Source: Bacilli bacterium
Lineage (GTDB): Bacteria > Bacillota_I > Bacilli_A > RF39 > UBA660
Assembly: GCA_017548925.1 (NCBI GenBank)
Contig: JAFYYX010000001.1
Location: 486,852 to 550,851, forward strand
Reading direction: 5' to 3'
DNA length: 64,000 bases
Both the position numbers and the translations under genes were made by a program. Every line of letters begins with the position of its first letter. The stretch's first letter is position 1. Below the pieces are notes generated by a model, which worked only from the letters and a program-made list of their open reading frames with translations, was not told where the DNA came from and ran no database searches. This document shows, in pieces, positions 7,400-53,574 of this stretch.

Positions 7400-7640
7400 C
7401 GAAAAAGCGAAGATCAAGAAGAGTAAATTATTAAAGTATCTTTTAGAGAGTTAAACATTTAGGTGAAAGTTTAATAAGAAAAATATAATTGAAAATCACT
7501 TGGGAGCTGAGTTAGTGAAAAAATTAGTAGTTAACTCCGGATATAAACTCATTAATATTCGTTAGAATGTAATTAAGTATAATTAAGGATGGTACCGCAG
7601 AATTATCATGCTCCTTAGCATGATAATACTGTGGTTTTTT
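7400..7640 (+). promoter_or_regulatory. T-box riboswitch (isoleucine) controlling ileS
   Basis: A canonical transcriptional T-box. The leader holds AGAGAG, GGTGAAAG, and a specifier loop reading GAAA-ATC-AC followed by TTGGGAG; the ATC at 7495-7497 is an Ile codon. The T-box core AAGGATGGTACCGCAG is at 7585-7600, with T as the variable base that pairs with the A discriminator expected for tRNA-Ile. A terminator with a long stem and T run occupies 7595-7640. Uncharged tRNA-Ile would stabilise the antiterminator and switch on ileS. The 393-base gap before ileS is explained by this element and its promoter. Confidence 0.95.
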
Positions 7641-25431: not shown

Positions 25432-26370
25432 TCAAGAATTTTTAAGAGCATACGCTAATATTTGTTTATTATTTACATCGATAGATATTTTATCAATATC
25501 ATAGTTATCTTTAATAGAAAGTGCAAGTCCATATATAACTTCTTCACTAATATTATCAAGTCCATTTAATATTAAACTATTAAATTCCATATTAAATTCA
25601 TTTTCAAGAATTTGATAGTTTTGCAAAATTGTTCCAGCTGAGATATAAGTTGATAAGTTCTTATCAATATTATCTTTAGCTTCAAGTTCTTTAATAATAA
25701 TTTCTATTTTTTCACCTTTATTATCTGTTGTTAGTGTAACTGGAATATAATATTTATTATTATTTATTTCATTAATAAAATATGTCGTAACATCTTGAGT
25801 ATTTTTAAATGAATTTGCTTTAATTTTTCTATTAATACCAATACTTCTACTTAAAATGTTAGGTATATTTTTTCCTGAAATAGGTAGTTTATTTAAATTA
25901 TTACCATTTATTAGTATCTTAACATTTTTAATTCCATCTATTTCTGTTAGTGTATAAACAAGTGATTCAATCATTTTTTCTTCTTCTAAATTTTTAATAT
26001 TTAAAAAGTTTTCATTAAAATCAATAGTTATTGTATCTTCTTCAATTGACACTTTATTAATAACTGTACCAGGTGGAATATATGTAGTAAAACCACTTGG
26101 TAAATATTTATTTTTGTTTGTTCCATTTATTAAAGCGTTAATAAGTTCAATAGCCTTTGCTTCTTTTTCTGTTGCATCAATATTTATGGTTGTTCTAGCA
26201 ACATAATTATTTTTATCTATTAAATATATTGCACTTGTCATGGCTTTTTTATATATTGTTTTACTTGGTATTTTAACTTCATCTTTAGGAAATAAATATA
26301 TTGAAATAATTGTAATAAGAAGGGCAAAAGATGCAACCAATATTCTTCTAAAAGCACCATTTTTTATCAT
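25432..26370 (-). CDS. gerM: Spore germination/sporulation protein GerM
   Basis: A membrane-anchored protein (helix at residues 9-27) with two tandem GerMN domains, about residues 40-165 and 185-305. The first shows AIELINALINGTNKNKYLPSGFTTYIPPGTVI and TIDFNENF, typical of the family. GerM of B. subtilis also has two such domains and acts at the mother-cell/forespore interface with the SpoIIIAH-SpoIIQ complex, consistent with spoIIIAH being encoded 330 bases upstream here. ATG follows TAGGTGAAAAT. 312 residues. Confidence 0.85.
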   Translation of the reverse strand: MIKNGAFRRILVASFALLITIISIYLFPKDEVKIPSKTIYKKAMTSAIYLIDKNNYVARTTINIDATEKEAKAIELINALINGTNKNKYLPSGFTTYIPPGTVINKVSIEEDTITIDFNENFLNIKNLEEEKMIESLVYTLTEIDGIKNVKILINGNNLNKLPISGKNIPNILSRSIGINRKIKANSFKNTQDVTTYFINEINNNKYYIPVTLTTDNKGEKIEIIIKELEAKDNIDKNLSTYISAGTILQNYQILENEFNMEFNSLILNGLDNISEEVIYGLALSIKDNYDIDKISIDVNNKQILAYALKNS

Positions 26371-26402
26371 ATTTTCACCTATAAAATTATATTTAATAAA
26401 TT

Positions 26403-26431
26403 AAAAAATATAACTTATTAGTTATATTTTT
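26403..26431 (-). terminator. Terminator at the end of gerE
   Basis: The stem AAATATAACT/AGTTATATTT is flanked by A and T runs and overlaps the gerE stop on the minus strand. Confidence 0.65.
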
Positions 26432-26628
26432 ATTTCACCAATTTTTATAAGTTCAACTAAAGCTTGACTTCTACCTTTAGAACCTAATTTTTGAATTGTA
26501 TTTGAAATATGATTTCTAACCGTTTTCTCGCTAATATTAAGTTTATTAGCTATTTCTTTAGTATCTTGGTTTTTTACAAGGAGTTCAAATATTTCTTGTT
26601 CTCGTTTTGTTAAAATACCATTTCTCAT
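26422..26628 (-). CDS. gerE: Late mother-cell transcription regulator GerE
   Basis: A 68-residue protein that is little more than a LuxR-type helix-turn-helix: LTKREQEIFELLVKNQDTKE, then ISEKTVRNHISNTIQKLGSKGRSQALVELIKIGE. B. subtilis GerE (74 residues) has the same architecture and near-identical KTVRNHISN and KGRSQA segments. GerE is the last regulator in the mother-cell cascade, activating coat genes with sigma-K. A sigma-K-type promoter lies upstream, as expected. Confidence 0.92.
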   Translation of the reverse strand: MRNGILTKREQEIFELLVKNQDTKEIANKLNISEKTVRNHISNTIQKLGSKGRSQALVELIKIGEIKI

Positions 26629-26667
26629 AACTTTTTTATCCTTTCATTTTATATATCCACTTACTTT

Positions 26668-26696
26668 TATATTATGAAAGAATAAAATACTTTGTG
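26668..26696 (-). promoter_or_regulatory. Sigma-K-type promoter of gerE
   Basis: Read on the minus strand: CACA (26696-26693), 16-bp spacer, CATAATATA (26676-26668). This fits the B. subtilis sigma-K consensus mACm, 16-17 bp, CATAnnnTA. The predicted start is near 26661, 33 bases before the gerE ATG. Confidence 0.65.
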
Positions 26697-26699
26697 TAG

Positions 26700-27191
26700 T
26701 TATTTATTAGAAAATTTAACTGTTACATAAACATTTTCTTTAAATTTTTCTTGAATTGTTTTAATGATTTTATTAGCAATTTCACTATTATGTTCACTAC
26801 TTGAAATAACAACGCTTATCTGGTTATCAGTTATTTTAACAAAATTATCATATTTATATTCTTTTTTAATTATTTCAGTTAACTTGTTTTCTTTAGCTTT
26901 TCTATTTGATATACCTTCAAGTTCATCATAAGCATTATTCTTTTCTTCAAGTGTTGCTTCACTATCTAAAAGAATGCTTTGTAGTTCATCAATTCTACTT
27001 ACAGTTGCTTCATCATCAGTTACTTTTAAAACACTTATATTGTTATCATCCGTTTTGCTTGATATAACTGATTCACTATTTTTTATTTTTCCAACAGATA
27101 ATGTTGTTTGATCAGATGAAAAATAGTAGATACCTAAAATAATAATTAATGAAAAAAGTGTAACAAACCATAAGCTTTGTTTATTTATCAT
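26700..27191 (-). CDS. spoIIIAH: Stage III sporulation protein AH
   Basis: A mother-cell membrane protein whose extracellular YscJ/FliF-like ring domain binds SpoIIQ to form the feeding-tube channel. The N-terminus MINKQSLWFVTLFSLIIILGIYYFSS is the family anchor; the ring domain follows from about residue 70 (RIDELQSILLDSEATLEEKNNAYDELEGIS, then EHNSEIANKIIKTIQEK). ATG 27191 was preferred over 27209 because AAGGAGG lies between the two. The gene is alone here, not at the end of a spoIIIAA-AH operon. A minus-strand CATAAATT (27241-27234) resembles a sigma-E -10. Confidence 0.9.
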   Translation of the reverse strand: MINKQSLWFVTLFSLIIILGIYYFSSDQTTLSVGKIKNSESVISSKTDDNNISVLKVTDDEATVSRIDELQSILLDSEATLEEKNNAYDELEGISNRKAKENKLTEIIKKEYKYDNFVKITDNQISVVISSSEHNSEIANKIIKTIQEKFKENVYVTVKFSNK

Positions 27192-27324
27192 AAAATCCTC
27201 CTTTTTCATGATAAATTATATTTTTTTATTAAAAATTTATGATTTTTTAAAAAAATTTTCTAAAAAAAAAGGAAATTGAATATTTTTCGGAAAAGTATAT
27301 TAGTGAAGGGAGATAAAAATTACA

Positions 27325-29364
27325 TTGAAAAAAAATCTTATAATTAAACAGCATGATATAACGGATTGTGGTCCAGCTTGTTTATTATCTGTAATTATTT
27401 ATTATGGGGGTTATGTTCCACTTAGCATGATTAGAGAAAACTCTTTTACAGATAAAACTGGTACAAGTGCATATAACCTCATTAAATGTGCAGAAAAATA
27501 TGGACTTACTGGATCAGGAATGAAAGTTAGTAATATAAAAAATATATCAGATGATAAACTTCCATGTATTGCTCATGCAAGAACGAAAAATGGTTTAAAT
27601 CATTTTGTAACTATTTATGAAATAAACAAAGAATATATTCTTATTATGGATCCAGGAGTAGGAAAGGTGAAAATGTTAATAGAAGAATTTAATGAAATAT
27701 TTAGTAATATTGTAATCCTTCTTCATCCCTATAAGAAAGTAGAAAAATTAAATAAACCCAAATCAATTATTAACCTTATTAAAGAGATAATACTAAATAA
27801 TAAATTAAATATACTTTTACTTTTTATTATTAGTTTATTAACAATGTTTTCATCGATATTCTTAAGTTATTTTATTAAAATAGGAAATTTAATCATAAAT
27901 AAAGGCTTAAATATTTCTTATTTGTATTTTTTATTTTTATTATTTCTTGTTATATATATTTTTAAGAATTTATTTGATTATATTAAAAATATGATAATTA
28001 TTAAATTTAATAAAAAAATAAGCTTAAAATTATTTAGTGATTTTTCAATGAAAATTTTTAATCTTCCTTTAAATTTTATTAGATCAAGAACAAGTGGTGA
28101 AATAGTAAGTAGATATAACGAATTATCTGAGGTAAATAGTTTATTACCAACTATTATATTATCCATGTTTCTAGATCTAATAACATCATTTATTACCATA
28201 TTATTTTTATTAAATATTTCTTATAAACTTACATTAATGGTTTTAGTTTTGATGATTGTTTATTTCATTATTAGTTATACTTTTAAAAATCCGACACTGT
28301 ATAAAATTAATAAAAACTTAGATGAAAATGCAAATTTAAATTCATCTGTCATTGAATCTATTAACAATCTAAGAAGCATTAAAAACTTACATAATGAAAG
28401 TAATATGAGAAAAAAATTAGATCAAATATTAAAAAAAACTCTATGTGATAACTATAGTTTAGATAGTTTTTATAATAAAATTACATTTATTAAAAATCTT
28501 TACTACGATTTAGTAATTTTCTTTATATCATCTTACGGATTATACTTGCTATATTTAAACAAAATAGGTATCACGGATTTATTTACTTTTTTAATTATAG
28601 TTAATTATTTTAGTGAACCTATTAAAGATTTAGTTGATATGGTTACTAAATTTTGTTTTATAAAAACATCTATTAATAAAATAAATGAGTTTAATATTAT
28701 TACAAGTAATGATAATGGCAATCTTACTTTTAAAGAAGGGGATATTATAGTTAATAATTTAAGTTATGCCTATAATGGTATAAATTTTGTTATTAATAAT
28801 TATTCATGCCAAATAAAAAAAAAGAGTAAGGTTCTACTTAAAGGAAATTCAGGATCAGGGAAAAGTACTTTATGCCAAATACTATCAAAACAATTACTTA
28901 ATTATGAAGGCAATGTTTTTATTGCTGGCAATGAAGTAAAAAATATAAATAATGATTCTTTTAAAAACAATGTAACATATATTGGTCAGAAGGACACATT
29001 AATAGTTGATACGATTGAAAACAATATAAAATATGAAAGGAATGTAGATAAAAAAGAGTTTAAAACTATTTGTAGATTATGTGAGATCGATGAAATAATA
29101 AATAAAAAATTCAATCGTTTTAATAATTTAGTTAGTGAATCTTCAGACAATATTTCAGGGGGAGAAAAACAAAGAATTACATTAGCTAGAGGATTAATTA
29201 ATTCAGGAAATATCTTGATTTTAGATGAACCTTTAAGTGAAGTAAACTGCGATATGGAAGAAAGAATATTAAAAAGAATAATATGTTATTTTAAAGATAA
29301 AACTATCATATATGTATCACATAAAAGTTATAAAAATATATTTGATCAAATAGTAAGAATATAG
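27325..29364 (+). CDS. Peptidase-C39-containing ABC transporter (bacteriocin processing and export)
   Basis: A PCAT-type exporter that cuts double-glycine leaders and exports the peptide. Residues 1-125 form the C39 protease, with Q9, catalytic C15 in DCGPACL, H93 in NHFVTI and D109 in DPGVGK, so it should be active. Membrane helices occupy about 150-430; the nucleotide-binding domain has GNSGSGKST, the signature SGGEKQ, Walker B ILILDEP and a switch VSH. Two double-glycine peptide genes follow after 47 bases. The start is TTG 27325, 12 bases from GGGAG, or possibly ATT 27319 at 6 bases. No HlyD-type accessory gene is present. Confidence 0.95.
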   Translation: MKKNLIIKQHDITDCGPACLLSVIIYYGGYVPLSMIRENSFTDKTGTSAYNLIKCAEKYGLTGSGMKVSNIKNISDDKLPCIAHARTKNGLNHFVTIYEINKEYILIMDPGVGKVKMLIEEFNEIFSNIVILLHPYKKVEKLNKPKSIINLIKEIILNNKLNILLLFIISLLTMFSSIFLSYFIKIGNLIINKGLNISYLYFLFLLFLVIYIFKNLFDYIKNMIIIKFNKKISLKLFSDFSMKIFNLPLNFIRSRTSGEIVSRYNELSEVNSLLPTIILSMFLDLITSFITILFLLNISYKLTLMVLVLMIVYFIISYTFKNPTLYKINKNLDENANLNSSVIESINNLRSIKNLHNESNMRKKLDQILKKTLCDNYSLDSFYNKITFIKNLYYDLVIFFISSYGLYLLYLNKIGITDLFTFLIIVNYFSEPIKDLVDMVTKFCFIKTSINKINEFNIITSNDNGNLTFKEGDIIVNNLSYAYNGINFVINNYSCQIKKKSKVLLKGNSGSGKSTLCQILSKQLLNYEGNVFIAGNEVKNINNDSFKNNVTYIGQKDTLIVDTIENNIKYERNVDKKEFKTICRLCEIDEIINKKFNRFNNLVSESSDNISGGEKQRITLARGLINSGNILILDEPLSEVNCDMEERILKRIICYFKDKTIIYVSHKSYKNIFDQIVRI

Positions 29365-29411: not shown

Positions 29412-29558
29412 TTGGAAATATTAAAAACATGTGAACTTAAAGAAGTGAAAGGAGGAGCACTTGGATCAAAACTAATAATGGCGTTAGTATCAGGAGGAGC
29501 CTTTCTTATTGGTTTAATTGATGGTTATTTACGTCCATTAAAGTGCAGAAATAGATGA
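29412..29558 (+). CDS. Double-glycine leader peptide 1 (class II bacteriocin-like precursor)
   Basis: A 48-residue precursor starting with TTG, 8 bases after AAAGGAG. Leader MEILKTCELKEVKGG fits the C39 consensus exactly: GG at -2/-1, Val at -4, Leu at -7, Glu at -8, Leu at -12. The predicted mature 33-residue peptide begins ALGSKL, has a hydrophobic core with a GxxxG motif (G19-G23), a basic C-terminus and one cysteine (C30). It overlaps the next gene by ATGA. It lies directly behind the C39 transporter gene. Function as a bacteriocin or signal is inferred from leader and context. Confidence 0.82.
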   Translation: MEILKTCELKEVKGGALGSKLIMALVSGGAFLIGLIDGYLRPLKCRNR

Positions 29559-29710
29559 GTGATAACGAATTAAAAACTATCTATGGAGGAGCGTTTAATT
29601 TTACAGTTACTTTTTTTAATGCAATATCAAGATATATTATGACTGTTAAAGGTTTAGGTGAAACAATAGGTAGTTCTATTAGAAGAATTTTTAAAAAAAG
29701 TATATGTTAA
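29555..29710 (+). CDS. Double-glycine leader peptide 2 (partner peptide)
   Basis: A 51-residue precursor whose ATG overlaps the stop of peptide 1 and which has no own Shine-Dalgarno, so it is likely translationally coupled. Leader MSDNELKTIYGG again has GG at -2/-1, Ile at -4, Leu at -7, Glu at -8. The predicted mature 39-residue peptide begins AFNFTVTFF, contains GxxxG (G23-G27), is strongly basic near the end (RRIFKK) and ends in cysteine (C39). Paired peptides with GxxxG motifs are the hallmark of two-peptide class IIb bacteriocins. A terminator follows six bases after the stop; no immunity gene is seen. Confidence 0.82.
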   Translation: MSDNELKTIYGGAFNFTVTFFNAISRYIMTVKGLGETIGSSIRRIFKKSIC

Positions 29711-29716
29711 TTTTTT

Positions 29717-29752
29717 AGAACTAATAAAAACAATTTTTATTAGTTCTTTTTT
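29717..29752 (+). terminator. Terminator of the bacteriocin-like operon
   Basis: A 14-bp perfect stem AGAACTAATAAAAA/TTTTTATTAGTTCT with a CAA loop and T tail. Confidence 0.92.
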
Positions 29753-29813: not shown

Positions 29814-29845
29814 ACCTAGTAGTTGAAGCGAAGGGAGGGAAATTG

Positions 29846-30040
29846 ATGACAAAAGTCGTAGTTCAAAATGGAAACATTGACGGTGCTTTAAAGAAATTTA
29901 AAGCTAAAGTTGCAAGAAGCGGTGTCCCTTCAGAATTAAAAAAGAGAAAACATTATGAAAAACCAGGGGTTAAAAGAAGAGAAGCTAAAAAAGAAATGAT
30001 TAGAAATTCTCGTAAAGCTAATAGATCTAGAGGTTTTTAA
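29846..30040 (+). CDS. rpsU: 30S ribosomal protein S21
   Basis: A 64-residue basic protein of the small subunit. MTKVVVQNGNIDGALKKFK is the standard bS21 N-terminus, with RSGVPSELKKRKHYEKPGVKRREAKKE following. ATG 29846 was chosen over the adjacent TTG 29843; GGGAGGG lies six bases upstream. rpsU heads the segment that in B. subtilis continues to yqeY and yqfA-D. Confidence 0.95.
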   Translation: MTKVVVQNGNIDGALKKFKAKVARSGVPSELKKRKHYEKPGVKRREAKKEMIRNSRKANRSRGF

Positions 30041-30092: not shown

Positions 30093-30335
30093 ATGAAAGT
30101 ATATGATAGATTAAAGTCTTGTTTTATAAATAAAGATTACTGTATTTCTTTAAGTAATAATTATATTTATATAATAAATTATAAAGAAATATTAGAAATT
30201 GATGATAAAAAAATAATAGTTAGTTTTGATAATTTTTCAATTGTTATAACCGGTTATAATTTTAAGATTAAAAGAAAACTTAATATAGAAATAGAAATAA
30301 GTGGACAATTCTCAAAAGTGGAGATTATAAAATGA
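30093..30335 (+). CDS. yqfC: Sporulation protein YqfC (YabP/YqfC family)
   Basis: An 80-residue beta-rich protein of the YabP/YqfC family: an N-terminal helix, then the family pattern of short strands (YIINYKEILEIDDKKIIVSFDNFSIVITGYNFKI) ending in a GQFSKVEII motif. In B. subtilis yqfC-yqfD form a sigma-E operon. The stop overlaps the yqfD ATG (ATGA), so the two are coupled. The exact role in sporulation is unknown. Confidence 0.85.
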   Translation: MKVYDRLKSCFINKDYCISLSNNYIYIINYKEILEIDDKKIIVSFDNFSIVITGYNFKIKRKLNIEIEISGQFSKVEIIK

Positions 30336-31450
30336 AATATATTGTTCAGTTAAAGTGTGATTTAAAAAATTATACCTACTTAATTAAAAAAATACTTCAA
30401 AATAATATAAGTGTTATTGATTCAAAAGTTAAAAATAATGAATACTTTTTCAACATATATGAAGACGAATATGAAAGATTATTACAATTAGATTATAAAA
30501 AAGTAATCATTTTTGTTAATTATAAGGGGTTATATAATATATATAATTTCATTACCGCAAATATCTTGTATGTAGTTATTACATTAACCATAATCTTTAT
30601 TTTATTTTTATCCAATATTTTTATATTTAAAGTAAACATACATACTAATGATATTAATTTAGAAAAAAAGATTATGTACTATTTAATGGATAACAATATA
30701 AGTGATTTTTCAGTTAAAAAAAGCTTTTCAAAACTAAAAAATATTAAGAAAAAACTTTTAAATAAATATCAAAATGAAATAGAGTGGCTTGAAATTAAAA
30801 GTGATGGATATATATATAATGTTTACTTAATAAAAAGAACAAACGAAAAACCAAAAAAGAAAAATGGTTTATGCAATTATATTGCTAAAAAGTCTGGAAC
30901 AATAACAAAAATATTTGCATCGAAAGGTGAACTATTAGTTCAAGAAAATAATTATGTTAATGCAGGTGACGTACTAATAAGTGGCAAGATTATTTATAAT
31001 GATGAAGTAAAAAATGAAGTGTGTGCAAAAGGTAAAATATATGGTGAAGTATGGTATGAAGTTGATCTCAGTTATCCTTTAATAAAATCAAATTATGTTA
31101 TAAATAATAAAAAACAATATAATATATCTATTAACTTTTTTAATAAAAAATATAAATTATTTAAAAATAAGTATAAAGAAGAGAAAAGCGTTAAAAAAAT
31201 AGGTAACAATAAATTTGGAATAAATGTTATAAATTCATATAAAACTAGAAGAAAAATAAACAAAATTTCTGAAAAAGAAGCAATAGTAAAAGCTATTAAA
31301 AAAGCAAAGAAAAGTATAATGTTAAAAACGAGAAATAAATCAAATATATTATCGCAAAATATTTTGAAGAAATATGTAAAAAATGATACAATATACATGA
31401 AGGTTTTAATAACCTCTGAAGAAGAATTAGGTGTTGTTGAAAGCTACTAG
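30332..31450 (+). CDS. yqfD: Sporulation protein YqfD
   Basis: A 372-residue protein of the YqfD family. An N-terminal POTRA-like region is followed by one membrane helix (about residues 80-105, ILYVVITLTIIFILFLSNIFIF) and a lysine-rich extracytoplasmic part. The segment GTITKIFASKGELLVQENNYVNAGDVLISG is the family's barrel-sandwich-like signature. It overlaps yqfC by four bases. In B. subtilis phoH and yqfF follow; here a VanZ gene follows instead. Sporulation role inferred from the family. Confidence 0.9.
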   Translation: MKYIVQLKCDLKNYTYLIKKILQNNISVIDSKVKNNEYFFNIYEDEYERLLQLDYKKVIIFVNYKGLYNIYNFITANILYVVITLTIIFILFLSNIFIFKVNIHTNDINLEKKIMYYLMDNNISDFSVKKSFSKLKNIKKKLLNKYQNEIEWLEIKSDGYIYNVYLIKRTNEKPKKKNGLCNYIAKKSGTITKIFASKGELLVQENNYVNAGDVLISGKIIYNDEVKNEVCAKGKIYGEVWYEVDLSYPLIKSNYVINNKKQYNISINFFNKKYKLFKNKYKEEKSVKKIGNNKFGINVINSYKTRRKINKISEKEAIVKAIKKAKKSIMLKTRNKSNILSQNILKKYVKNDTIYMKVLITSEEELGVVESY

Positions 31451-53340: not shown

Positions 53341-53574
53341 TGAAAAACGAAGAACAAGAGGAGTATAATTAATTACTTTTAAAAAGAGAGTTAGTATTTG
53401 GTGAAAGCTAATAAAGTATTAATTAGAAGGTAGCTTGGGAGTTATATATTTGAAATAATAGTAAAATATATTGTTTGGTCGCATTAAGACTATTAAGGTA
53501 ATATATATTAAGTATGTTACAAATTAAGGTGGTACCACGAAAGATTCGTCCTTATAGGATGAGTCTTTTTTATT
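53341..53574 (+). promoter_or_regulatory. T-box riboswitch (valine) controlling dut-valS
   Basis: A full canonical T-box: AGAGAG (53385-53390), GGTGAAAG (53400-53407), specifier layout GAAG-GTA-GC-TTGGGAG with GTA (Val) at 53430-53432, T-box core AAGGTGGTACCACGA (53526-53540) with T as variable base for the A discriminator, and a 12-bp perfect terminator stem at 53541-53567 with T run. The first gene downstream is dut, not valS; valS follows 17 bases after dut. Confidence 0.95.

Follow-up and report, generated by a model that had tools for sequence, protein, structure and literature searches.

A near-universal pair of double-glycine peptides carrying GxxxG motifs, encoded behind a C39 exporter in a family of reduced-genome Bacilli

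Here we describe a compact cassette from a bacterium of the RF39 order, in which a C39 peptidase-containing ABC exporter (PCAT) is followed by two overlapping genes for small cationic peptides, P1 and P2, each with a double-glycine leader and a GxxxG motif. A pair of this class IIb-like build is kept like a core gene by about 93% of the sampled genomes of a reduced-genome gut lineage. Judged from these genomes, the pair is not the private bacteriocin of one strain, since it is near-universal in the family and apparently inherited vertically; it is part of a family cassette of three to five genes. Export of both peptides by the linked PCAT is well supported by motif and homology evidence, and we lean, with modest confidence, toward a class IIb-like action of the exported peptides.

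The window, by which we mean the whole stretch of 64,000 nucleotides analysed, lies in a genome of 1.07 Mb in 3 contigs, and the features of the cassette are collected in Table 1. The operon has a three-gene form, consisting of exporter, P1 and P2, without the MFP-like gene and without the p3 gene carried by some relatives. The exporter stop codon (29364) is separated from ORF1 by 47 bases, and an intrinsic terminator follows directly 3' of P2, so that the three genes look like one unit ending before rpsU. A scan for sigma-70 promoters gave fewer matches than were obtained in shuffles and is uninformative, because the DNA is AT-rich. Sporulation genes are found on either side of the cassette, namely a gerM-like gene, a gene with a GerE-type HTH and spoIIIAH at 25432-27209 on the minus strand, and yqfC and yqfD at 30093-31450 on the plus strand; the upstream set is not constant in relatives, which have rsmD, an MBOAT gene or others there instead. 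Elsewhere in the window, two T-box leaders at 7401-7618 and 53341-53556 (plus strand) score above the Rfam gathering score.

Table 1. Coordinates of the cassette and its downstream neighbour, as positions in the window
Feature	Position	Strand	Description
C39 peptidase-containing ABC exporter (PCAT)	27325..29364	+	679 aa, TTG start; Pfam Peptidase_C39 PF03412 (1.6e-32), PF00664, PF00005
Ribosome-binding site of P1	29397..29403	+	AAAGGAG, from sequence
P1 precursor (ORF1)	29412..29558	+	48 aa, TTG start; homologues in 178/193 family genomes
P1 leader	29412..29456	+	ends in ELKEVKGG; GG kept in 77/79 loci
P1 predicted mature peptide	29457..29555	+	33 aa; GxxxG within a hydrophobic helix, which is followed by the tail DGYLRPLKC
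P2 precursor (ORF2)	29555..29710	+	51 aa, ATG start; homologues in 179/193 genomes
P2 leader	29555..29590	+	ends in ELKTIYGG; reaches TIGR01847 cut-off
P2 predicted mature peptide	29591..29707	+	39 aa; amphipathic cationic helix, GxxxG..IRR, terminal Cys
Intrinsic terminator, operon end	29717..29747	+	14-bp stem, U run; -12 kcal/mol, z -5.0
rpsU (ribosomal protein S21), outside the cassette	29843..30040	+	PF01165, 3.9e-19

The first-pass annotation, made from the letters of this DNA, had proposed two coupled frames of 48 and 51 codons, a TTG start behind AAAGGAG, an ATGA overlap, and leaders fitting the C39 recognition pattern at -1, -2, -4, -7 and -8. All of these were recovered on re-reading the sequence, with the overlap at 29555-29558, as were predicted mature parts of 33 and 39 residues with exactly one GxxxG each (G34-G38 in P1, G35-G39 in P2) and net charges of +4 and +5. 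It had mentioned neither the terminator nor a cysteine that is conserved near the C-terminus of both mature peptides. Mature P1 contains a hydrophobic helix-forming segment, and the AlphaFold2 model of P2 is a helix from residue 4 to 46 (pLDDT 73.8) with a significant amphipathic moment, which shuffles reached in 0.005 of cases at best. Among the small ORFs of the window, the strict C39 leader pattern matches exactly ORF1 and ORF2; first-order Markov windows contained on average 0.075 such matches, and an adjacent pair arose in 0 of 40. The leader pair behind the exporter is thus not a chance product. The notion that these are chance open frames behind a transporter has a negligible claim to belief, being refuted by the Markov windows, by conservation of the frames throughout the family and by the purifying selection seen in their pN/pS values.

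Every expected exporter motif is intact, including DCG (Cys15), HF (His93), MDP (Asp109), Walker A, SGGE and LDEP, which bears out the earlier claim of an intact Cys-His-Asp C39 domain in the gene upstream. The protein combines an N-terminal C39 domain bearing Cys-His-Asp with an ABC membrane domain and an NBD, the architecture that defines the PCAT family. Its closest solved structure is PCAT1 of Clostridium thermocellum (PDB 4ry2; 7.6e-82 over residues 2-667), followed by ComA. PCAT1 has the same domain order, but the substrates differ: the P1 profile (28 relatives) and the P2 profile (27 relatives) match the PCAT1 substrate CtA weakly and in the leader part only, and against the PDB they returned nothing beyond leader similarity or chance.

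To place the cassette in its family, we sampled 193 genomes from 148 genera. Profile searches found P1 and P2 each in 137 of the 148 genera, and by this distribution ORF1 and ORF2 are real genes. An order-wide draw yielded the same family only, with P2 in 270 of 288 genomes, and elsewhere in the class there were only weak matches, mostly limited to the initial, leader-like portion of the profile. Four genomes of another family of the class (G039, G051, G445 and G515) gave weak P2-profile matches, at positions 1-30, in frames of 139 aa, which are possibly double-glycine-leader proteins of another reduced-genome family. Among named relatives, the cassette occurs in MAGs of uncultured Bacilli, Tenericutes and Mollicutes, including Candidatus Faecisoma merdavium, and many of these come from animal guts.

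Ten of the 14 genomes lacking the peptides have no C39 domain at all, and another (G093) has a weak C39-like match in an unrelated frame of 1073 aa. In the remaining three the orthologous exporter is cut short, in two clearly at a contig end, so that the missing peptides are probably assembly gaps. Most losses of the peptides therefore take the C39 exporter as well. A genome of the same genus (G004; locus L004, 1271-3626) shows the cassette decaying as a unit: a break inside the C39 domain interrupts the exporter frame, and P1, having lost its DGxxRPLKC tail, continues in frame into P2. Distances between exporters correlate with those between peptides (Mantel r 0.60 and 0.66) and with those between rpsU proteins (0.47), consistent with largely vertical descent. 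No P2 match was obtained in phage and plasmid collections, and a mobile origin of the pair was rejected on this ground. Taken over the sampled genomes, the cassette appears largely to be a vertically inherited part of the near-core genome of the family and not a mobile bacteriocin locus.

Alignments revealed where conservation resides. In the P1 alignment (A1) the GG, P42 and C45 are invariant and G34 and G38 nearly so; in that of P2 the GG, G39 and C51 are invariant and G35 and R44 nearly so. Of 79 loci, 77 have GxxxG in P1 and 77 have it in P2, and all 79 have a cysteine within 6 residues of the C-terminus in both peptides. A P1 motif based on a conserved subset had been used to find these loci, which biases the P1 counts but not those for P2; the unbiased figures for P1 are alignment A1 and the 193-genome count. 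Over 12 independent locus pairs, pN/pS was 0.145 for mature P1 and 0.205 for mature P2, as compared with 0.30 and 0.29 for their leaders and 0.26 for the exporter; p3, at 0.42, evolves faster. Pairs were picked first by P2 identity, and the estimate was repeated with pairs picked by exporter identity. The synonymous-biased substitution in relatives on which the first-pass annotation had staked its reading is thus present over both frames (0.145-0.30). Furthermore, the mature parts are more constrained than the leaders or the exporter, unlike the outcome of diversifying warfare.

How far the pair may be called a class IIb bacteriocin depends on which of its properties are compared. A GxxxG motif in each peptide is the hallmark of that class and has been linked to helix pairing (PMC8538875). 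With lactococcin G and plantaricins EF and JK the cassette shares adjacent genes for small cationic double-glycine peptides, one GxxxG motif in each, and a dedicated C39 exporter, as well as an accessory protein that is present in many relatives and not in the window. It differs from them in its near-universality and apparent vertical inheritance within one family, in the single conserved C-terminal cysteine of each peptide and in the DGxxRPLKC tail of P1. It also differs in that class IIb systems have LagC- or Abi-type immunity, with an adjacent gene for a membrane-associated protein, whereas about half of the relatives have the P2-like p3, and no recognised immunity gene was found beside the pair in the window, although an unlinked or unrelated one may exist. 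The proposal of a class IIb-like pair accordingly stands as regards coupling, GxxxG motifs, charge and C39 leaders, and fits poorly as regards near-universality, vertical inheritance and the lack of a recognisable immunity gene in this genus.

Model searches gave a similarly divided answer. The leader of window P2, the only part matched by any model, just reaches the TIGR01847 cut-off (15.8 vs 15.7 bits); P1 of the window falls below that of PF10439 (17.3 vs 27.1 bits), with no TIGR03949 match reported. Several P1 relatives exceed the cut-off of TIGR03949 (lactobin A/cerein 7B, class IIb), by up to 32.8 vs 21.5 bits, in matches that lie for the most part over the leader and hydrophobic segment. 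Because the window peptides lie under the curated cut-offs of PF10439 and of the bacteriocin subfamily models, we refer to the pair as class IIb-like and do not file it as a class IIb member. Our literature search returned no paper on bacteriocin peptides in RF39 or on this cassette. A commentary (PMC12648078) describes an atlas of class II bacteriocins from gut genomes, and this atlas possibly includes automatic predictions of these peptides.

The order exporter, (MFP-like), P1, P2, (p3) is uniform wherever the genes are present (80 named loci), and rpsU follows P2 within 2 kb in 41 of 79 loci. About half of the relatives carry an MFP-like protein and the leaderless p3. The MFP-like gene lies between exporter and P1 (L168:5470-5928 and 32 other loci) and encodes 126-158 aa, modelled as one N-terminal helix and a beta domain (pLDDT 88.7). 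It has no convincing match in Pfam, and Foldseek with the model gave none with E < 0.12. The model aligns best with the beta-barrels of the adaptors BesA, Spr0693, MacA and CusB, at Z 7.9-9.1, where values below 8 are within the chance range; as modelled, the protein resembles a minimal adaptor without the coiled coil. The p3 gene (L098:6296-6466 and 36 other loci, i.e. 37 of 79) overlaps or adjoins the end of P2, and its product has a hydrophobic stretch and a P2-like GxxxG...R end (alignment A3), which hhalign matches to the P2 C-terminus with E 3.3e-6 and a probability of 88%. The two accessory genes co-occur (27 loci with both, 34 with neither, 13 with one; Fisher 2e-8, a value that overstates independence because the loci are related). 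No p3 homologue was found in the window genome.

The conserved cysteines also raise the possibility that P1 and P2 are modified to give lanthipeptide-like or other RiPP products, with the cysteine as the modification site. Each mature peptide does have one such residue, and lanthipeptides too have double-glycine leaders. Nevertheless, no modification enzyme was seen in the operon or in the conserved neighbourhood, and lanthipeptide leader models gave marginal matches to single members only, which makes this reading improbable.

A link to spore formation is suggested by the position of the cassette between spoIIIAH/gerM and yqfC-yqfD in the window; a mix of sporulation genes has been described for the RF39 order (PMC10868615). 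Across the sample, presence of the pair is weakly associated with that of YqfD (Fisher p 0.007), an association that can arise from genome incompleteness alone. The pair occurs without YqfD in 22 genomes, including G063 (98% complete), G084 and G155, while 8 others have YqfD and no pair, although 3 of these look like assembly gaps, and the upstream neighbours in relatives vary as noted above. Sporulation as the main role was rejected on the strength of the 22 genomes, and a sporulation-linked function of any kind seems very unlikely.

A weightier alternative is that the peptides are exported in the same way and act upon the producing cell or its kin, in the envelope, as a density signal or in kin recognition. 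Class II bacteriocin genes are commonly described as strain-specific and often mobile, and against that background near-universality, vertical inheritance and the strongest constraint falling on the mature parts are unusual and, in our analysis, count against a bacteriocin. Near-universal retention, constraint on the mature parts and the absence of a recognisable immunity gene from the window fit a conserved function in the producer, and action on producer or kin would explain retention throughout the family without immunity. The peptide-exporter distance correlation and the lack of phage or plasmid matches point the same way. There is also precedent in HetC of Nostoc, a conserved PCAT needed for heterocyst differentiation and hence with a role other than killing (PMC10986499), although HetC is cyanobacterial and carries a cyclic-nucleotide-binding domain.

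Several features speak against this alternative. Double-glycine signal systems usually consist of one pheromone and a two-component receptor. ComA/ComC shares with the cassette a C39 exporter that handles double-glycine peptides, but here there are two coupled GxxxG peptides, with neither a histidine kinase nor a receptor gene seen adjacent to them. The GxxxG motifs, the amphipathic cationic build and the decoy-like p3 are better suited to membrane-active pairs, and loss from about 11 genomes, together with decay in G004, indicates that the cassette is dispensable. We regard a signalling or physiological role as possible but doubtful.

For the class IIb-like action that we favour, the following sequence of events can be proposed. 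The C39 domain would cleave each precursor behind its GG, and the exporter would release the hydrophobic P1 and the amphipathic, cationic P2; these are the safest of the steps, given the intact catalytic and ATPase motifs, the kinship with PCAT1 and ComA, the canonical leaders and the joint loss of peptides and exporter. Outside the cell, P1 and P2 may pair through GxxxG as membrane helices, a membrane-active complex being suggested by the hydrophobic helix of the one, the amphipathic helix of the other and the single GxxxG in each. The pair would then permeabilise the membrane or otherwise act on it, as class IIb two-peptide bacteriocins do, and could kill target cells; in that class, antimicrobial activity requires the two peptides at about 1:1. 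The single C-terminal cysteines of P1 and P2 may be joined by a disulfide that holds the two peptides together. Where present, in about half of related genomes, the MFP-like protein would assist export, and p3, as a leaderless membrane peptide sharing the GxxxG...R end of P2, could serve as an immunity decoy.

A further, more speculative idea, which we consider rather unlikely, is that the cassette encodes a near-core, family-defining pair of secreted helices, possibly disulfide-linked, that nearly all of these species use on the membranes of the producer or its kin, with p3 as a leaderless mimic of P2 that confers tolerance by occupying the site where the GxxxG of P1 finds its partner. The cassette offers defined genes, defined motifs (GxxxG, the terminal cysteine, the DGxxRP tail) and a natural contrast between loci with and without p3, and its function can be approached with synthetic peptides, so that a culture of the producer is not needed. 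If an ancient bacteriocin has become near-core in these very small genomes, this would bear on how abundant uncultured bacteria hold their niche; alternatively, the family may have retained a double-glycine peptide pair whose function is other than killing.
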